The notes under the pieces: generated by a model
Told to the model about the DNA's origin: nothing
The model's input: the letters and a program-made list of their open reading frames with translations, nothing else
Database searches by the model: none
Assembly (NCBI GenBank): GCA_028714535.1
Contig: JAQTME010000010.1
Coordinates: forward strand, 1 to 38,647
Reading direction: 5' to 3'
DNA from: Candidatus Iainarchaeum sp.
GTDB lineage: Archaea > Micrarchaeota > Micrarchaeia > Anstonellales > Bilamarchaeaceae
Length of the DNA stretch: 38,647 bases
Shown here: in pieces, positions 27,692-38,647 of the stretch
Numbering within the stretch: the first letter of the stretch is position 1
Layout: each line of letters opens with the position of its first letter
Translations under genes and position numbers: made by a program

Positions 27692-28375
27692 ATGTACAAA
27701 AACATCCTGGCGATATTAGGCATCCTCCTTGTAGGAGCCAGCATAGTAATGGCTATATCAGGTGCAACCACCACCTGGGTTTCTGATACCCGCTGGTCTG
27801 GAAACACAAGCGGCAGCGACATCACGCAGGGCGGCAACATCACGGCCCTGAACATAGCCGCGAGCGTGCTCACCAGCAAGTGGGCGTCCTACTACGGGAA
27901 CGTGACAGGTAGCATAGTCCTCGGCGACGGCAACGCGAACGTCTACAGCTGGACCCTGAGCGAGGGTTCGGTCGGCGAAGTCTGCGTTTCGACAAACACC
28001 AGCTTCAACTTCACAAGCGCCGCGACCGCAACAGGCGCCAACATCAACACCGCATGGGGCTTCACAGCGACCGATGCTGACAGCGGCAACAACACCTACC
28101 GGTCTTCGAACTGCAACATCAGCTTCGCGCAGGCCAACATCACCAACACAGGCAACGTCTCGCTCCAGGGCAGCAGCAACTTCAACAACTGCGTAATACG
28201 GAGCGGCACAGTCGCTGCCGGCACCACTGGCTTCCTGGCGTTCTGCACCAATCTCCAGCCCCGGTCCAGCGGCCTCAACTACGCCGGCCAGCCGGCCAAC
28301 TACGAGATAATGGTCGCGACCAACAACGCCCCCGGCGCAACCGAGACGTATTACTTCTACGCCGAGCTCAGCTAG
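27692..28375 (+). CDS. Secreted surface protein, probably abundant
   Basis: This 227-aa protein has a signal peptide (MYKNILAILGILLVGASIVMA) and a mature part of low charge, rich in Asn, Thr, Ser, Gly and Ala with many N-x-S/T sites and four cysteines. Its beginning (SDITQGGNITALNIAASV, then WASYYGNVTGS) resembles the start of the 30225 protein (NDTTQGGNITTVNLAIPQ), so both carry one module. There is no C-terminal membrane anchor. A consensus TATA box, a good ribosome binding site and a long T-rich terminator make it a self-contained, probably highly expressed unit, perhaps a sheath or S-layer-like component (inference). Confidence 0.7.
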   Translation: MYKNILAILGILLVGASIVMAISGATTTWVSDTRWSGNTSGSDITQGGNITALNIAASVLTSKWASYYGNVTGSIVLGDGNANVYSWTLSEGSVGEVCVSTNTSFNFTSAATATGANINTAWGFTATDADSGNNTYRSSNCNISFAQANITNTGNVSLQGSSNFNNCVIRSGTVAAGTTGFLAFCTNLQPRSSGLNYAGQPANYEIMVATNNAPGATETYYFYAELS

Positions 28376-30224: not shown

Positions 30225-31274
30225 ATGCTCCCCCGCGTTCTTATCGTCCTCCTCCTGTTGCCAGCGCTCGCGTTCGCAGGCAATGACACGACCCAGGGGG
30301 GCAACATAACCACGGTCAACCTGGCAATACCCCAGAACTCCTCATGGCACGGCGTCGTCGGCACCCTGTCGCCTGCCCCGGCCGTGCCGTTCAGCATCAA
30401 CGCCACGCCGGGCAACATGACCAACACCGTGATAACCTCCGGCTCCGGCTCGGCCCCATACGGCGTGAACGGCTCCATATGGCTGCTGTTCTCCAACTCA
30501 TCCACCCAGATTACGTCGCTGTCGCCCGGCAGCCTCGCATCGCTCGACCAGTTCATAGGCGCAATCGGGCAGAACGCATCGTCCACATTCACGGCCAACA
30601 CCACGTTCATCATCGGCAACTTCACGATCGCAAACGTGCCGACGGCATACACCCTCGCGCCCGTCCCCACCACGTTCCGCATGGGCTACCTGCGGGACCA
30701 GAACGGCAACATCGTCATAGCAGTGCAGGCGGTGAACCGGAGCTCCGGGTTCAACGGCTCCCTGTTCGACTTCCAGCTCATGCTCCCCACGCAGAACGGC
30801 ACGGCGGTGGAATACTACCTGACGGTCATAGTGAAGGGGAACCTCCCGCCGAACCCCCCGCCCCCTCCGCCGCCGCCAGGGCCGAGCCAGGGGGGAGGCG
30901 GCTCGCACACGCCCTATTACAACGAGACGAGGAACGCCACGCCGGTTAACATAACCAACATCACCAACGTCACGTGCATAGCCGAGATATGGTGCGGCGA
31001 GTGGGGTGCATGCGTGGACGGGTTCCGCTACCAGTCATGCACGGACCTGGCCAACTGCAGCGGCATCGAGATATTCCGCTCAGAGCGCTGCGGGGTCCCG
31101 CCAGGCGGCATAGAGCCCGAAGTGCCGCCCGGAAAGCTGATACCAATCGTGCTGGAACGCGAGTTCCCGTGCCTCATTTACCTCCTCCTGCTTATTCTGT
31201 TGCTGCTTATGCTGTTTTATCTGTGGAGAAGGGGCAAAAAAGAGCGGGAAAAACAGGCTGCTTCTACGAGATAA
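30225..31274 (+). CDS. Membrane-anchored surface protein with proline linker and Cys-rich domain
   Basis: This 349-aa protein has a signal peptide (MLPRVLIVLLLLPALAFA), then the TQGGNIT module shared with the 27692 protein, and an Asn/Thr-rich beta domain. A polyproline-glycine linker (PNPPPPPPPPGPSQGGGG) follows at about residues 208-225. Next is a small Cys-rich domain with WCGEWGACVDGFRYQSC and two or three more Cys, resembling thrombospondin-type W-x-x-W-x-x-C modules, then a C-terminal membrane helix with a basic tail. It forms an operon with the upstream gene. The layout is that of a stalked adhesin. Confidence 0.75.
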   Translation: MLPRVLIVLLLLPALAFAGNDTTQGGNITTVNLAIPQNSSWHGVVGTLSPAPAVPFSINATPGNMTNTVITSGSGSAPYGVNGSIWLLFSNSSTQITSLSPGSLASLDQFIGAIGQNASSTFTANTTFIIGNFTIANVPTAYTLAPVPTTFRMGYLRDQNGNIVIAVQAVNRSSGFNGSLFDFQLMLPTQNGTAVEYYLTVIVKGNLPPNPPPPPPPPGPSQGGGGSHTPYYNETRNATPVNITNITNVTCIAEIWCGEWGACVDGFRYQSCTDLANCSGIEIFRSERCGVPPGGIEPEVPPGKLIPIVLEREFPCLIYLLLLILLLLMLFYLWRRGKKEREKQAASTR

Positions 31275-31286
31275 CCCTAAGCCGGG

Positions 31287-31295
31287 CTTTATAAG
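31287..31295 (+). promoter_or_regulatory. TATA box of the giant surface protease gene
   Basis: CTTTATAAG, about 69 bases before the chosen ATG at 31360. An in-frame ATG at 31327 is nearer, but GGGGAG six bases before 31360 favours the latter. Confidence 0.5.
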
Positions 31296-31359
31296 TTTTT
31301 CTGAGATATGTTTCCGGTAGTGTGCAATGGGTCCATATCGTGACCAAAGGGGAGTGTTT

Positions 31360-34300
31360 ATGCTAGAGCGCAACCACAAAACCTATGCGTTCTTCCTTAT
31401 CATCCCGCTGCTCGTCTCAGTCACCACACTTATCGCTAATCTCCCAATCGAGAACCGCACGGTGAACGTGAGCTACGTCGAAGGGCTCAGCAGCGACTTC
31501 TCCAACATGCTGCTCGAGGTCATGACCTCCAACGGCTCATACGCCGCACCGTACGAGATCCTGGACAAGCAGGACGGCAGGTGGGCCGCCGTGCGCCTGC
31601 CGCTGCCCGAGGGCAACTACTCGCTGAACGTCCTCGCCTCCGCAGGCAACGCGAGCGTCATCCCGTCGGCATACGGCCCGGAGTTCCTGGAGATAACGTA
31701 TTTCGGCGGCCTGGAGCCGGACTTCTCCAACCTCGCCATCCAGTTCGTGGACAGCAACGGCGACACGTCGGACATCCCATATTCCATCATCGCCCTCGAG
31801 AAGGGCAAGTGGGCCACGATATCCCTGTCGCGGCCGCCCATGGCCGGGGAATCCGTCTCGGTGCTGATACAGCAGCCCGTCGAGATGGAGCCCCAGCCCG
31901 ACTCCCGGCAGCCTGCCGGCGAAGGCAGCCCGTGGGTGTGCCCGGCGCAGCCGGCAGCCAACGATTCGTTCGACAGCATCGCAATCCGCCGCACGGCCCA
32001 CGGCCCGGTCTCAGCGACATTCGACGGCTGCGGCGCTGAGATAGACGGCGAGGCATACGACCTGCTGGCCTCGAACGCCACCGTGAGGGTCATCGCCGAG
32101 GGCGGCGGCAGCTTCAACCCGCAGGGCGAAGGCGTCATCGCCAAGCATGCGCTGCGCAGCCGCGGCATGCACGTGCTCGAGATACGCCGCGACTCGCTCG
32201 CGGCGCTCATCGAGGCCGGCGGCACGAAAATCCACCTGGACAGGCCCATGGACATCTCGCTCACGGAAAGCATCCCGCTCATAAGGGCCGACCAGGCCAG
32301 GGCCGCATTCGGCCTCACCGGCGCGGGCATGTCGGTGTGCCTGCTCGACACGGGGGTGAATGCAGCCGCGCCGCAGTTCGACGGGATGGCGGCCAGCGGC
32401 CACGACTTCGTGAACGACGACAACGACAGCATGGACGACAACGGCCACGGCACCCTCATGGCATCCACGATACATGCCATCGCGCCCGAAGCGAAGATAA
32501 TCGCGGTCAAGGTGCTCGACTCGTCAGGACACGGCTATTCGTCCGACATAATCGCGGGCATCGACTACTGCAGGCAGCTCGCCGCCAACGATTCCGGGCT
32601 GCGCATAATCTCGATGAGCTTCGGCGGCGGCAGCTTCACCGGCTGGTGCGACGGGGACCCGCTCTCAATCGCTGTTGAGGACGCATACGAAGACGGCATC
32701 CTCCCCATCGCCTCGTCAGGCAACGGCGGAAGCGGCGGCATAACCGCGCCGGCGTGCGCCATGAACGCCACAGCGGTCGCATCCACGTCAAAAACCGACA
32801 CGCTCTCCCCGTTCTCCAACATCAACCCTATGGTCGACCTGCTCGCCCCTGGCGAAGGCATAACCGCCGAAGGGCTTTTCGGCCCGCAGACGATGTCGGG
32901 CACATCTGTGAGCGCAGCGCACGCCGCAGGCGCAGCAGCGCTCCTGTGGCAGACCGCCCCTGACAGCGCGCCAGCGGAGATAGGGCAGCGCTTCGCCACA
33001 ACCGGCATCCCGGTCTGGGCCGGCAGCGCGTACTACCCGCGCATAGACGTGCTCAACGCGATAACGAACAACCTGACATCCATCCCGGAGAAGCCGCCTG
33101 TGAACGGGAGCAACGGCACGGCCGGCGAATTCACCGCGGCCCTTGCCGTGACCAGCATCAATCTCAACGCCACCTCGCCCAACAACAAGACGACCGACGA
33201 CCTGACCTGCAACTACGCCGTGGATGCAGGCACCGCCACAGCCGCGGTGGCATGGTACAGGAACGGCGCGCCGCTGGGGCTCCTTTACATGCCGTTCGAG
33301 GGGAACTCGTCCAACGCGCTGCTCGACTATTCAGGAAACGGCGCCGACGGGGCGAATTCAGGCGCGGTGTGGAACGCCACCGGCGGCCCGGACGGAAACG
33401 GCTCATTCGAGTTCGATGGCACAGCGTCATACATCAACGCGCAGACTTTCTACAACTCGACATTGAGCCAGCTTACGGTGATGCTGTGGATACGGCCCAA
33501 GGCGCAGAGCGACTGGAGGGACATAATATCCAAGGAGACCGGCGACTACGCGACCGCGGGCTTCGGGCTCAGGCGCTCGGCTGCGGACCAGTTCGCCTTC
33601 ACGCTGTACAACGGGGGAAAAAGGGAGCTCCTGGCGCCGAGCGCATTCGATGATGCCGGCAGCACGTGGTACCACGTGGCAGGCACGTACGACGGCACGA
33701 CGATGAGGCTCTATGTCAACGGCGCAGAGGTGAGCACCCTGGCCACTTCCGGCAACATCGTCAATTCGATTTACAGCCTGCAGATAGGAAGAAGGACGAG
33801 CGCTTCGGACAGGTGGATTTACGCCACGCTGGATGACGTGAGGGTATACAACTATTCCCTCTCAGCCGACCAGGTCCTGGCGATATACCAGGGCAGGCCG
33901 GATTGGATATCCCAAAGCGAAACCGAAACAGGGGACGTCTGGCAGTGCAGGGTCACGCCGTTCTCCTCAACCGCGGCAAACTCCACAGTGAGCTCGAACA
34001 ACCTCACAATCATCGTCCCGCCGCTGGGATGGGACCGTGCAAGCCTCGGCATCGGCACGGTTTTCCAGGGTTCATCAGCCGCAAGCAACGCGACCGTCAC
34101 CGCCTCAGGCAACCACGTCGGAGTGACCGTCGCGGCCATATCAGGCAACGGCACGGGCTTCATCACCGCCAGTCCCACGTCACTCGGCAACATGAACGAC
34201 ACCGACACGGGCCCGGTCCAGTTCAGCTGCGCCCCGTCCCAGGGCCAGGCAACCGGCCACTACGAGGCAGTCTTCAGGGCCAACTCGTCCAGCTTCACCT

Positions 34301-37300
34301 CCGGGGACGACATCACGGTGACGTGCACGGTCGCAGCCCCGACCACCTTCTCGGTCCAGAAATACTACCTTCCCATGGCAGCCGGAACGACTTCAGCGTA
34401 CGCGCCGTTCACGGGCGGCCAGACCAATGTCAATTCCGTGCCCTTCGCCACCATCTCGCTCAACGAGACCACCACGACCGATTACTGGCGCCAGTACGTG
34501 CCAGACATATACTTCAACTCGAGCGGCGTCATCGTGGAAAGGAACAATGCCGCGTCGTCAACCATGAACGTCATCGTCACAGTGGTCCAGTTCGCCTCGG
34601 ACTCCGTCAGGGTGCAGGACGGCACATTCAGCCTGGGCACAGGCTCGACCACCGCCTCCATCGGGAGCAGCGTCAACCTGTCCCGTTCAGCCCTCATATT
34701 CTATTACGAATCTACTGACGCCACGGACAACTACCAGGACAACTCAATCCGGGGCCGTATCAGCGGCGTGAACGAGCTGAACTTCAGCCTGGACCCGAGC
34801 TCCACCACCGGAACGAAGTCAGGGCACTGGTACGTCTTCGAATCCCTTGACGGCGCATTCACAGTCCAGAGCACGGCGCTCAATTTCGCTTCGGCTGGCA
34901 CCACCGCGACAGGGGCGATAAGCGCAGTCCAGATGAACAAGACCTTCCTGATAGCGTCCTATTCGACAAGCGAGACTTCAGACGACCCAAGGGACGGCTC
35001 GCTTACGGTCAACCTGACATCCACCACCGTGGTCACGGGCACGCGGCTGGGGACGCCCGCGGCGGTCCTGAACGCCACGGTATACGCGATCACCTTCGCA
35101 GGTAACGAACTAGTCCAGAGGGGCTATTTCAACTACGGGACCGCAACCACCCAGAGCGGCACCATCGCCGCAGTCAATACGAGCCTGTCGATGGCATGGA
35201 ACCCGGTGCTCACCGGGCGCATGGCGAGCGATTCCACCGCAAGCTACGGCCTGGTGTCCGCATTCCACCGCCTCAACCTGACGAGCTCCACGGCCCTCAC
35301 TGGCACGAAGGACAGGAACATCGGCAATACCGCCGGCGCCTGGGAAGTCGTATCCTGGGTTGCGCCATCGTCCGTCTCCAGCCTGGCGTGGAACCAGTCC
35401 ACGCTCAGCATCGGCAGCGTCGTGCAGGGGGCGTCCTTTGCCCTGAATGCGACGCTCACCTCGACAGGCAACAACGCCAACGTGACGGTAAGGGCGGTCT
35501 CAGGCAACGGCACTGCCTTCATCAACGCCAGCCCCACGTCGTTGGGCGACATGAGCAGCGGCAACAGCACCGGGGTCAGGTTCAACTGCTCCCCCTCCGC
35601 AAGCCAGGCAGCGGGCTACTACGCGGCGGTCTTCAAGGCCAATTCGTCCACCAACGGAACCGGTAACAACATCACGGTGAGCTGCACCGTGGCCGCGTTC
35701 GCGCTCAACCTCGCCTGGAACCAGAGCGCCATCGCGCTTGGTAGCGTAGTCCAGGCGATGTCCAACGCCAGCAACGCGACCGCCACCGCGACAGGCAACC
35801 ACACGGCCGTCAAGGTCACCGCGGTGGCAGGCAACGGCACGGGAGTCATCACCGCCAGCCCCACGTCGTTGGGCGACATGAGCAGCGGCAACAGCACGGG
35901 CGTCAAGTTCAACTGCTCGCCGAGCATATCCAACGCCTCGGGCTACTACGAGGCCACGTTCAAGGTCAATTCGTCCAACTACAGCTCAGGCAGCAACATC
36001 ACCGCGGGCTGCACCGTCCTGGCGCTCAACCTCGCCTGGAACCAGTCAACCCTCGGCATCGGCAGCGTCTCCCAGAACACTTCAAGCACGAAGAACGCCA
36101 CAGCCACTGCGACCGGCAACCACGCGAACGTTGCCGTGGCAGCCGTCGCAGGCAACGGGACCGCGTTCATCAGCGTCACGCCGGCATCAATCGGGAGCAT
36201 GGCCAACGGCCAGGTGCAGCAGGCCATGTTCAACTGCTCGCCGAACGCGTCACAGGCGCTCGGCTACTACGTGGCCGTATTCAAGCTCAATTCCTCCAAC
36301 CTCACTTCTGGCAGCAACATCACCGTAAGCTGCACGGTCGCGCCACCGGTCATGCACAATTTCACCATCATCGTGGCGTATGACCACAACGACACCTGGT
36401 TCGGCGACGTTATAGTGAACGCCACAGTGACCAACGAGGATTCCCAGGCCGTGACGGGCGCGTCAGTCAACCTGACAGTCACCCCGCCGACAGGAAGGGG
36501 CGTCTATCCGCGGACAGTGGCGATGCTGGACGACGGCGCCTGGCCCGACGCGGCCGCAGGCGACGGCATCTATGCCACCCTGTTCGACGTGTCGCTGTCC
36601 GGCGCGGCCTACACCAACGGCACCATGGGCCTGAACGTCTCGGCGGTGAAGAGCGGCTACAACGACGGCTACAACGACACCCGCTCGTTCTTCACATTCG
36701 TCGTGAGGCGCTGGTACGGCTCAGCCACGCAGGACGTATATGCCGATTACCGGCTGACAGACAACGGGAACGGCACATGGACGCACAATGTCACGGACGT
36801 GCGCATCTACAGCGCCAACACCGCAGCCAACAACGTCACGGTGAAAATCCCGATAATCAACCAGCCGAACATCTACGGCCTGCAGGCCAGGGGGGTCAAC
36901 GCCTACAAGGTCCTGGGCAACAACACCATAGTGCTCTACCTGAACGTCACCTCAGGCGGCACCACCATGGTGAACTATTCGTTCCTCGCGGCCAGCGACC
37001 TCGTGCTCACCCTGAACGACAAGTACCAGACATCCACAATCGGCGAGAGGATAGGCAAGAACGGCTTCGTGGTGTGGAACAGCCACATACAGAAGGAGTC
37101 GTTCGGCATCGGCTTCGCCGCAGAGGGCTCCGACGCCACCAACGGCCAGCACTCGGTCGGCGAGGACGTGGGCATGAAGGTCGTGGACGGCGAGAGCGCG
37201 GACAACCAGAGCTACACCGTGGACTGCATGGAGCGCACCGGCATAGTGGAGAACTCCACAGGCACCATGGCATACGCAACCTGCGCGAGCTGCGGCAGCT

Positions 37301-38647
37301 ACTACGAATGGAACATCCACTGGAAGAGCCCGGACGACGCTTCCTCGTCCCACCTGGGCGGCGAGATAGTATCCGCCACGCCAGACAACGTCACGGTCAG
37401 GATGACCGACCACGGCTCCACGAACGAGTGGGGCTCCACCAGCCGCTACAACGTGACCAAGTCGCTGACATTCTACGCCGGCAAGAACTACGAGAAGCTG
37501 AACTTCACGATAATGAACATCGGCACAGTGCCGCTCAACACCACGCTGGTCTGGGGCAGGGAGCCGTGGGTCTATGCCGGCGGCTCAACGGACCAGAACG
37601 ACCGCGGGGCAATACCAACTGGCTGGCCGCAGGTCAACGAGGAGGATTACACCTGGCAGGAGCTGACGAGCAACTGGTTCGGCTTCTACGACGATGCCAC
37701 CAACTACGGGACGGCCGTCATATTCCCGGCGAACACCAGCGCCGGCGCACCGACCGTGTGCGCACATCTGGATTCCCTCCGCACCCCTTTAGGCACCAGC
37801 GCAGGGCAGAACCTCTGGCCATGGACGATAACCCATGCGGCAGATCCCAATGCCATGCTGGACGACATGTTCTGCAACTGGCAGTTCGGCGCGCTCGCGG
37901 CAGGCGCCAACGCATCCGCGGTATTCTACCACTGGGGCGGCTACAGCGGCACAGGCAACGGCCTGATGGACGAGATGGCCACGGCCGCGGACGAGATAGA
38001 CGCGGCCACGCAGGGCCAGTATCTCTCCTGGAACCAGACCGCGCTTGCGCTCGGCAACGTCTCCCAGGGGGCGTCCTTTGCCCTGAACGCGACCGCAACG
38101 TCCCACGGCAGCAACGCCAACGTTGCAGTCGCCGCGGTGGCAGGCAACGGGACCGCGTTCATCAGCGCCACGCCCGCCAGCATCGGCAGCCTCTCCCCCA
38201 GGCAGTCGCAGCAGGTCAGTTTCAACTGCTCGCCGTCGGCAGGCCAGGCAGCTGGCTACTACGCGGCGGTCTTCAACATAAACTCCTCCGGCTACGCCGC
38301 AGGCGCCAACATAACCGTCAGCTGCAACGTCACCGCAGTGGCCGCTGTCAACTGCCCCACGATAGCCTCCGGCGGCACCTATGTGCAGCAATTCAACTAC
38401 ATCGGCGCGCCCAACAGCGCCTCTCCATTCACGCTCAACAACTTCACGTGCGTGAAGATAGCCGCGTCCAACGTCGTCTTCGACTGCAACGGCTTCAACA
38501 TGACCGACAACGGCACCTCGAGCACGGGCACGAGCTACGGCATCCTGGTCAACGGCTCCCTCACCAACGTGACGGTGAGGAACTGCCAGGTATCCAACTA
38601 TTCATACGGCGTGTTCATCAACGCCTCCAACAACAGCAACTTCATCA
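31360..38647 (+). CDS. Giant surface subtilase with LamG, Ig-like repeats and beta-helix (runs off the window)
   Basis: The frame is open without a stop from 31360 to the window end, at least 2429 residues. In order: an N-terminal hydrophobic signal or anchor (AFFLIIPLLVSVTTLIA); a beta-rich pro-region; a subtilisin domain with Asp330 (LLDTGV), His363 (NGHGT), oxyanion Asn455 (SSGNG) and Ser516 (GTSVSAAHAAG); a LamG/concanavalin-like domain (about 644-845, ending LDDVRVYNYSLS); Ig-like repeats of about 105 residues (889-992, then three in tandem at 1342-1661, then 2222-2326); a choice-of-anchor-like domain (MLDDGAWPDAAAGDGIY); a unique region of about 480 residues; and the start of a right-handed beta-helix (VFDCNGFNM, then NVTVRNCQVSNYSYGVFI). 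It is rich in N-x-S/T sites. It is predicted to be an exported protease and adhesin. A start at 31327 is possible. Confidence 0.9.
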   Translation, partial: MLERNHKTYAFFLIIPLLVSVTTLIANLPIENRTVNVSYVEGLSSDFSNMLLEVMTSNGSYAAPYEILDKQDGRWAAVRLPLPEGNYSLNVLASAGNASVIPSAYGPEFLEITYFGGLEPDFSNLAIQFVDSNGDTSDIPYSIIALEKGKWATISLSRPPMAGESVSVLIQQPVEMEPQPDSRQPAGEGSPWVCPAQPAANDSFDSIAIRRTAHGPVSATFDGCGAEIDGEAYDLLASNATVRVIAEGGGSFNPQGEGVIAKHALRSRGMHVLEIRRDSLAALIEAGGTKIHLDRPMDISLTESIPLIRADQARAAFGLTGAGMSVCLLDTGVNAAAPQFDGMAASGHDFVNDDNDSMDDNGHGTLMASTIHAIAPEAKIIAVKVLDSSGHGYSSDIIAGIDYCRQLAANDSGLRIISMSFGGGSFTGWCDGDPLSIAVEDAYEDGILPIASSGNGGSGGITAPACAMNATAVASTSKTDTLSPFSNINPMVDLLAPGEGITAEGLFGPQTMSGTSVSAAHAAGAAALLWQTAPDSAPAEIGQRFATTGIPVWAGSAYYPRIDVLNAITNNLTSIPEKPPVNGSNGTAGEFTAALAVTSINLNATSPNNKTTDDLTCNYAVDAGTATAAVAWYRNGAPLGLLYMPFEGNSSNALLDYSGNGADGANSGAVWNATGGPDGNGSFEFDGTASYINAQTFYNSTLSQLTVMLWIRPKAQSDWRDIISKETGDYATAGFGLRRSAADQFAFTLYNGGKRELLAPSAFDDAGSTWYHVAGTYDGTTMRLYVNGAEVSTLATSGNIVNSIYSLQIGRRTSASDRWIYATLDDVRVYNYSLSADQVLAIYQGRPDWISQSETETGDVWQCRVTPFSSTAANSTVSSNNLTIIVPPLGWDRASLGIGTVFQGSSAASNATVTASGNHVGVTVAAISGNGTGFITASPTSLGNMNDTDTGPVQFSCAPSQGQATGHYEAVFRANSSSFTSGDDITVTCTVAAPTTFSVQKYYLPMAAGTTSAYAPFTGGQTNVNSVPFATISLNETTTTDYWRQYVPDIYFNSSGVIVERNNAASSTMNVIVTVVQFASDSVRVQDGTFSLGTGSTTASIGSSVNLSRSALIFYYESTDATDNYQDNSIRGRISGVNELNFSLDPSSTTGTKSGHWYVFESLDGAFTVQSTALNFASAGTTATGAISAVQMNKTFLIASYSTSETSDDPRDGSLTVNLTSTTVVTGTRLGTPAAVLNATVYAITFAGNELVQRGYFNYGTATTQSGTIAAVNTSLSMAWNPVLTGRMASDSTASYGLVSAFHRLNLTSSTALTGTKDRNIGNTAGAWEVVSWVAPSSVSSLAWNQSTLSIGSVVQGASFALNATLTSTGNNANVTVRAVSGNGTAFINASPTSLGDMSSGNSTGVRFNCSPSASQAAGYYAAVFKANSSTNGTGNNITVSCTVAAFALNLAWNQSAIALGSVVQAMSNASNATATATGNHTAVKVTAVAGNGTGVITASPTSLGDMSSGNSTGVKFNCSPSISNASGYYEATFKVNSSNYSSGSNITAGCTVLALNLAWNQSTLGIGSVSQNTSSTKNATATATGNHANVAVAAVAGNGTAFISVTPASIGSMANGQVQQAMFNCSPNASQALGYYVAVFKLNSSNLTSGSNITVSCTVAPPVMHNFTIIVAYDHNDTWFGDVIVNATVTNEDSQAVTGASVNLTVTPPTGRGVYPRTVAMLDDGAWPDAAAGDGIYATLFDVSLSGAAYTNGTMGLNVSAVKSGYNDGYNDTRSFFTFVVRRWYGSATQDVYADYRLTDNGNGTWTHNVTDVRIYSANTAANNVTVKIPIINQPNIYGLQARGVNAYKVLGNNTIVLYLNVTSGGTTMVNYSFLAASDLVLTLNDKYQTSTIGERIGKNGFVVWNSHIQKESFGIGFAAEGSDATNGQHSVGEDVGMKVVDGESADNQSYTVDCMERTGIVENSTGTMAYATCASCGSYYEWNIHWKSPDDASSSHLGGEIVSATPDNVTVRMTDHGSTNEWGSTSRYNVTKSLTFYAGKNYEKLNFTIMNIGTVPLNTTLVWGREPWVYAGGSTDQNDRGAIPTGWPQVNEEDYTWQELTSNWFGFYDDATNYGTAVIFPANTSAGAPTVCAHLDSLRTPLGTSAGQNLWPWTITHAADPNAMLDDMFCNWQFGALAAGANASAVFYHWGGYSGTGNGLMDEMATAADEIDAATQGQYLSWNQTALALGNVSQGASFALNATATSHGSNANVAVAAVAGNGTAFISATPASIGSLSPRQSQQVSFNCSPSAGQAAGYYAAVFNINSSGYAAGANITVSCNVTAVAAVNCPTIASGGTYVQQFNYIGAPNSASPFTLNNFTCVKIAASNVVFDCNGFNMTDNGTSSTGTSYGILVNGSLTNVTVRNCQVSNYSYGVFINASNNSNFI
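34024..34335 (+). repeat. Ig-like repeat 1 of the giant surface protein
   Basis: First and most diverged copy of the ~105-residue module: SLGIGTVFQG, then ITASPTSLGNM, then a Cys pair (VQFSCAPS and ITVTCTV) that could form the domain disulfide. Confidence 0.75.
35383..36342 (+). repeat. Tandem array of Ig-like repeats 2-4
   Basis: Three head-to-tail copies begin at 35383, 35710 and 36031 (109 and 107 residues apart), each starting LAWNQS and ending with a Cys in ITVSCTV or ITAGCTV. The copies are also similar as DNA: 35536-35579 and 35866-35909 differ at only a few bases, pointing to recent duplication or gene conversion. Confidence 0.85.
38023..38337 (+). repeat. Ig-like repeat 5, separated from the array
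   Basis: It starts LSWNQTALALGNVSQGASFALNAT and ends NITVSCNVTA. Its QGASFALNAT stretch is nearly identical in DNA to that of repeat 2 (around 35427), although about 2.6 kb apart. Confidence 0.8.

Follow-up and report, generated by a model that had tools for sequence, protein, structure and literature searches.

The closest published parallel to the protein described here is the SPEARE group of Nanohaloarchaeota, and it is a disputed one. The original report describes SPEAREs as giants of the cell surface that combine a serine protease with adhesion and restriction domains (Hamm 2019, PMC6642349), and a later paper holds that SPEARE giants have neither protease nor endonuclease domains (PMC10266531). 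Among Micrarchaeota, the report on Mia14 includes an account of large, strain-specific surface proteins rich in LamG and beta-propeller domains, and the term "protease" is absent from its main text (PMC5498576). A search of the open-access literature, outside which most subscription journals lie, turned up no paper about giant subtilases in Micrarchaeota. Tk-SP and Tk-subtilisin are small secreted enzymes, and the tetrabrachion of Staphylothermus is an archaeal surface stalk with a bound protease, in which enzyme and stalk are separate proteins.

The window analyzed here, 38,647 bases long, is the entire contig C10 of a 1.14-Mb, Micrarchaeota-like assembly in 34 contigs, and it ends inside a gene for a giant subtilase. 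The protein resembles the SPEAREs, as portrayed in the literature cited above, in being a DPANN surface giant with LamG, other adhesion modules and a serine protease (for the SPEAREs a claimed one). Its laminin-G and serine protease domains are two of the SPEARE criteria; the class is further defined by a transmembrane segment near the C-terminus and a cytoplasmic restriction or VirB4-like domain, and the window's giant is cut before its C-terminus. In contrast to the SPEAREs, the subtilase is unambiguous by Pfam, by PDB sequence match and by its triad, and the clade giants with a visible end carry a C-terminal extracellular cap without a transmembrane or cytoplasmic ATPase/restriction part. 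The combination of a pro-domain with an S8 catalytic fold is shared with Tk-SP and Tk-subtilisin (PDB 3afg and 2z2z), but here binding modules extend the chain beyond the catalytic domain by more than 1,800 residues. As in tetrabrachion, a protease would be borne on an archaeal surface stalk, but enzyme and stalk form one chain. Working proteases in DPANN giants are disputed for the SPEAREs; the present clade has a clear and conserved subtilase in such giants.

Reading frame and modules of the giant

The giant frame runs open to the window end over 2,429 codons from ATG 31360 and over 2,440 from ATG 31327. Judged from the sequence, ATG 31360 is the better candidate for the start, with the Shine-Dalgarno-like AAGGGGAG directly 5' of it and the TATA-like box TTTATAAG farther upstream (Table 1). 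As the window takes in all of contig C10, the frame reaches its 3' limit at a break in the assembly, and its stop codon lies beyond the contig. First-order shuffling (200 trials) produced no stop-free run longer than 639 codons, and third-position GC remains within 0.81–0.91 in each 600-base slice, a pattern that shows no sign of a frameshift in the giant; the single uninterrupted frame of more than 2,429 residues proposed in a first-pass annotation holds. The same annotation found the size striking, a judgment that is not upheld, since open frames of 3,435, 4,312 and 4,990 aa occur in the clade. The last 295 bases of C10, inside the beta-helix, are 92% identical to part of the giant gene on contig C9, which probably accounts for the contig break.

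Table 1. Coordinates of the giant gene, its modules and the upstream cluster in the window
Feature	Position	Strand	Basis
Secreted "cap" protein, 227 aa, first cluster gene	27692..28375	+	homologue near CWB2-like gene, 16/18 named loci
CWB2-like surface protein, 586 aa	28455..30215	+	CW_binding_2 E 3e-4, under curated cut-off
Membrane protein, 349 aa ("gene 2"), ectodomain = cap domain	30225..31274	+	hhalign to 27692 family
TATA-like box TTTATAAG	31288-31295	+	by eye from sequence
Shine-Dalgarno-like AAGGGGAG	31347-31354	+	by eye from sequence
Giant surface subtilase, 3' end missing	31360..38647	+	open frame, domain matches, coding signature
N-terminal hydrophobic signal or anchor segment	31387..31443	+	hydropathy 2.25
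Tandem N-terminal beta domains	31447..31914	+	36-49% identity in same-genus giants; strands in model
Subtilase pro-domain	31981..32253	+	alpha/beta fold in AlphaFold model; pro-subtilisin fold matches
Peptidase_S8 catalytic domain	32320..32994	+	Pfam E 7e-36; PDB 1s2n E 4.8e-33
LamG/concanavalin-like domain	33415..33876	+	Laminin_G_3 E 5e-28
Ig-like repeat 1	34020..34319	+	repeat comparison
Second unassigned region, short internal repeat (35009/35273)	34320..35378	+	repeat D3
Ig-like repeats 2-4	35379..36326	+	repeat comparison
Choice-of-anchor X motif	36517..36603	+	NF041940 32.2 bits, cut-off 25
Orphan region	36703..38010	+	only self-match in 84 order + 301 phylum genomes
Ig-like repeat 5	38019..38318	+	repeat comparison; NPCBM_assoc 23.3 bits, cut-off 24.4
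Right-handed beta-helix start, interrupted by contig end	38302..38646	+	53% identity to C9 beta-helix giant

From the N-terminus the giant is composed of a hydrophobic segment, two beta domains, a pro-domain, the S8 domain, LamG, one Ig-like repeat and an unassigned stretch, followed by three Ig-like repeats and choice-of-anchor X; the orphan region comes next, and the fifth Ig-like repeat leads into the beginning of a beta-helix. Inspection of the hydrophobic segment by eye showed no clear AxA cleavage motif. The N-terminal beta domains are common to giants without a protease. The five Ig-like copies, each of ~300 nt, lie near Pfam NPCBM_assoc and under its cut-off, and the beta-helix is identified by comparison with the C9 giant, its visible portion being too short for a Pfam match. 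The LamG, Ig-like, choice-of-anchor and beta-helix modules listed in the first pass were thus all recovered. The region at about 36700–38020, then left nameless, has no relative in 301 phylum genomes and no credible match in PDB, Pfam or PHROGs, or in viral contigs or plasmids; a single-sequence AlphaFold model of it (36982–38028) was unusable, at a mean pLDDT of 35. It is not the sole nameless stretch, since the region before Ig-like repeat 2 also gave no credible Pfam or PHROG match.

NxS/T sequons number 102 in the giant (31360–38646), against a mean of 38 and a maximum of 56 in 500 shuffles (2.7 times expectation), and their density is 4.2 per 100 aa, against 0.2–0.9 in four enzymes of the window. 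STT3 had no match in the window's genome. The notion that N-glycosylation is impossible for want of STT3 was dropped, as 12 of the 17 genus genomes have STT3 over the cut-off.

The subtilase and its relatives

The Peptidase_S8 match scores 124.4 bits against a curated cut-off of 21.8, and the top PDB sequence match of the giant is a subtilisin-like proteinase (1s2n). The catalytic triad is complete, as first annotated, and is formed by Asp (32347–32349), His (32446–32448) and Ser (32905–32907), corresponding to D341, H374 and S527 numbered from ATG 31327. Mutation of the triad in close relatives had been named as a result that would count against the annotation; across 17 aligned S8 domains Asp and His are each kept in 17/17 and Ser in 15/15 where it is visible, masked bases in G056 and a contig end in G104 hiding the remaining two. 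The oxyanion Asn is likewise kept in 15 of 16 visible domains and is replaced by Ser in G040. An AlphaFold model of residues 1–607, counted from ATG 31360, has a mean pLDDT of 76.7, and the PDB folds that fit it best are unprocessed pro-subtilisins, aligned over 368–401 columns. Given a domain over the cut-off, a triad that is ordered and conserved and the presence of a pro-domain, the sequence places the giant in peptidase family S8.

No Pfam match, I9 included, was obtained for the pro-domain in the giant; a paralogue on contig C5 has I9. That paralogue (L024:3-8075, minus strand) spans 2,691 codons with an open 3' end and is ordered beta-helix, I9, S8, beta-helix, a second I9-S8 protease of the genome positioned mid-protein.

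A query spanning the N-domains and S8 matches 48 of 301 phylum genomes. Twelve subtilases, the window's among them, share at least 46% identity and group as a single clade (support 100/100); all 12 frames exit at contig ends, with no full-length member and no C-terminus visible. The subtilase tree leaves forks open and does not follow families, G006 grouping with f19. For one relative, in G022, whole-protein hmmscan did not list S8, yet six-frame search gave the domain at E 5.8e-38.

The upstream cluster and the shared cap domain

Upstream of the giant lie, in order, the small secreted cap protein, the CWB2-like membrane protein, which has a C-terminal transmembrane segment (hydrophobic at 543–561), and gene 2, with its transmembrane segment at 316–334. 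A first contig scan with the N-terminal protein as query found no relative, and the neighboring CWB2-like gene was queried next. The 18 nearest named loci found through that gene derive from Micrarchaeota (14), "ainarchaeum" (1), Woesearchaeota (1) and other archaea (2). An N-domain giant lies downstream in 9/18, S8 in 6/18 and both in 3/18; L048, L049 and L060 show neither feature; in L054, L058 and L059 a giant-type C-terminal domain is present without S8. The two loci without a visible cap-gene homologue are on contigs that start inside the CWB2-like gene, and gene 2 is on the opposite strand in L055–L057.

Seven of the 12 clade subtilases (the window's and 6 of the 11 others) sit in this conserved cluster. 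The examined flanks of the G022, G058, G070, G072 and G105 subtilases contain no CWB2 or gene 2 homologue, and the cluster is therefore not obligatory for clade subtilases. That the cluster requires the protease was also rejected: G008, G010, G011 and G013, estimated to be 90–93% complete, gave no Peptidase_S8 match although both the cluster and an N-domain giant are present in them. Because such relatives retain the cluster, the protease looks like an accessory, optional module.

The C-terminal domain of seven giants and related proteins aligns with the 27692 family (hhalign 98.3%, E 2.6e-14), as does the gene 2 ectodomain (98.7%, E 1.5e-16). The best E values in 60 column shuffles per comparison were 0.008 (giant C-terminus) and 0.078 (gene 2), unrelated domains taken from these proteins gave 0.34 or worse, and two reversed alignments gave 0.049 or worse. 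Compared directly, the giant C-terminus and gene 2 match weakly (15.8% probability), the connection running via the 27692 family; tblastn also connects small cap proteins to giant C-termini (L054, 1.4e-7; L058, 3.7e-8). Hydropathy revealed no transmembrane segment in the giant C-termini of the clade. This cap domain, which has no Pfam family, thus occurs in three settings: free as a secreted protein, as part of a membrane protein, and C-terminally in giants.

We define N-domain/cap giants of Micrarchaeota by N-terminal tandem beta domains and a C-terminal cap ending in ..YxELx; the window's giant has the N-terminal domains of this class, and its contig stops before the C-terminus. A tentative extension, which we think may well prove wrong, is that in Micrarchaeota giants with a subtilase, a GDSL lipase or no enzyme plug into one surface system by docking onto a common cap-domain assembly. 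In G001 (L042:1-5949) gene 2 and a giant form one open frame with two hydrophobic segments, where a sequencing error is possible. The shared cap domain provides a handle on how the giants are held on the cell.

Function and extent of the giant

We favor, with moderate confidence, a secreted giant in which an N-terminal, self-activating subtilase zymogen is joined to an adhesive scaffold of LamG, Ig-like and beta-helix modules, the protease being optional. The first-pass proposal that a surface protease is borne by an adhesive stalk agrees with the secretion segment, the pro-domain, the triad conserved in relatives and the scaffold modules. After export, cleavage of the pro-domain would split the N-terminal domains from the protease-scaffold, and since the zymogen would then free itself of its N-terminal part, these domains could not be the lasting anchor. 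The scaffold may instead be held on the cell surface by the cap-bearing partner proteins, which are candidate anchors, and the protease is predicted to digest extracellular protein that the binding modules hold nearby, for nutrition or in contact with neighbors. The class of substrate (free protein, a competitor or a host) is not readable from the sequence, and host attack is possible. As the subtilase is expressible as one domain, its activity is directly testable.

In a SPEARE-like attack, by analogy, the binding modules would hold a partner cell while the protease breaches its S-layer. The ingredients described for SPEAREs of another DPANN group (serine protease, LamG, adhesion modules and giant size; PMC6642349) are consistent with this, as are the host-bound members described among Micrarchaeota in PMC5498576. 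However, the host-dependent life assumed in the first pass found no support: purH, carA, carB and genes for ornithine/aspartate carbamoyltransferase and formyltransferase are encoded in the window, and contig C9 adds a PurL-like gene, so strict host dependence is not suggested. Free-living members are argued for in PMC8561730 for high-GC Micrarchaeota orders with de novo nucleotide synthesis, to which the window's genome may or may not belong. The protease is also patchy (13 of the 43 family genomes have any S8), the presence of a protease domain in SPEAREs is contested in PMC10266531, and complete clade giants end in an extracellular cap, whereas most SPEAREs have a transmembrane and a cytoplasmic part; we therefore regard such an attack as unlikely. 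Somewhat less probable still is an envelope-maturation protease that processes the cell's own surface proteins, among them its own N-terminal domains and the neighboring gene products. Its zymogen layout would suit this role, and the close members within the cluster, the window's included, adjoin the same envelope genes, but the four genomes with the cluster and N-domain giant and no subtilase match speak against it, and the apparent accessory character of the protease makes outward action more likely than an essential part in maturation.

Two further alternatives concern the gene itself. The repeat-rich contig end and its 92% identity to C9 over the last 295 bases could point to an assembly chimera or a pseudogene, but the coding signature is continuous throughout the giant, 11 close S8-bearing relatives occur in other genomes and the order of N-domains and S8 recurs in L050, L052 and L053, making this very improbable. 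The other is that the C10 frame runs on into C9 as a single protein exceeding 6,700 residues and is not the first of two tandem giants, which bears on extent and is compatible with any functional reading. The C9 giant (L025:2863-15795, minus strand) comprises 4,312 codons with six LamG domains, a GDSL lipase and beta-helices; it ends in a cap domain, and the PurL-like gene follows. Its 5' end is open, and its cap domain is the only one found in the genome besides 27692. However, the start of C9 corresponds to the region that follows the N-domains in other giants, and the C10 and C9 ends do not match each other, so that we give the fused protein a low probability. In G008 two giants, the first represented by its tail and the next complete, lie ahead of this PurL-like gene, an arrangement that also argues against fusion and from which C10 and C9 are plausibly neighbors in the genome.
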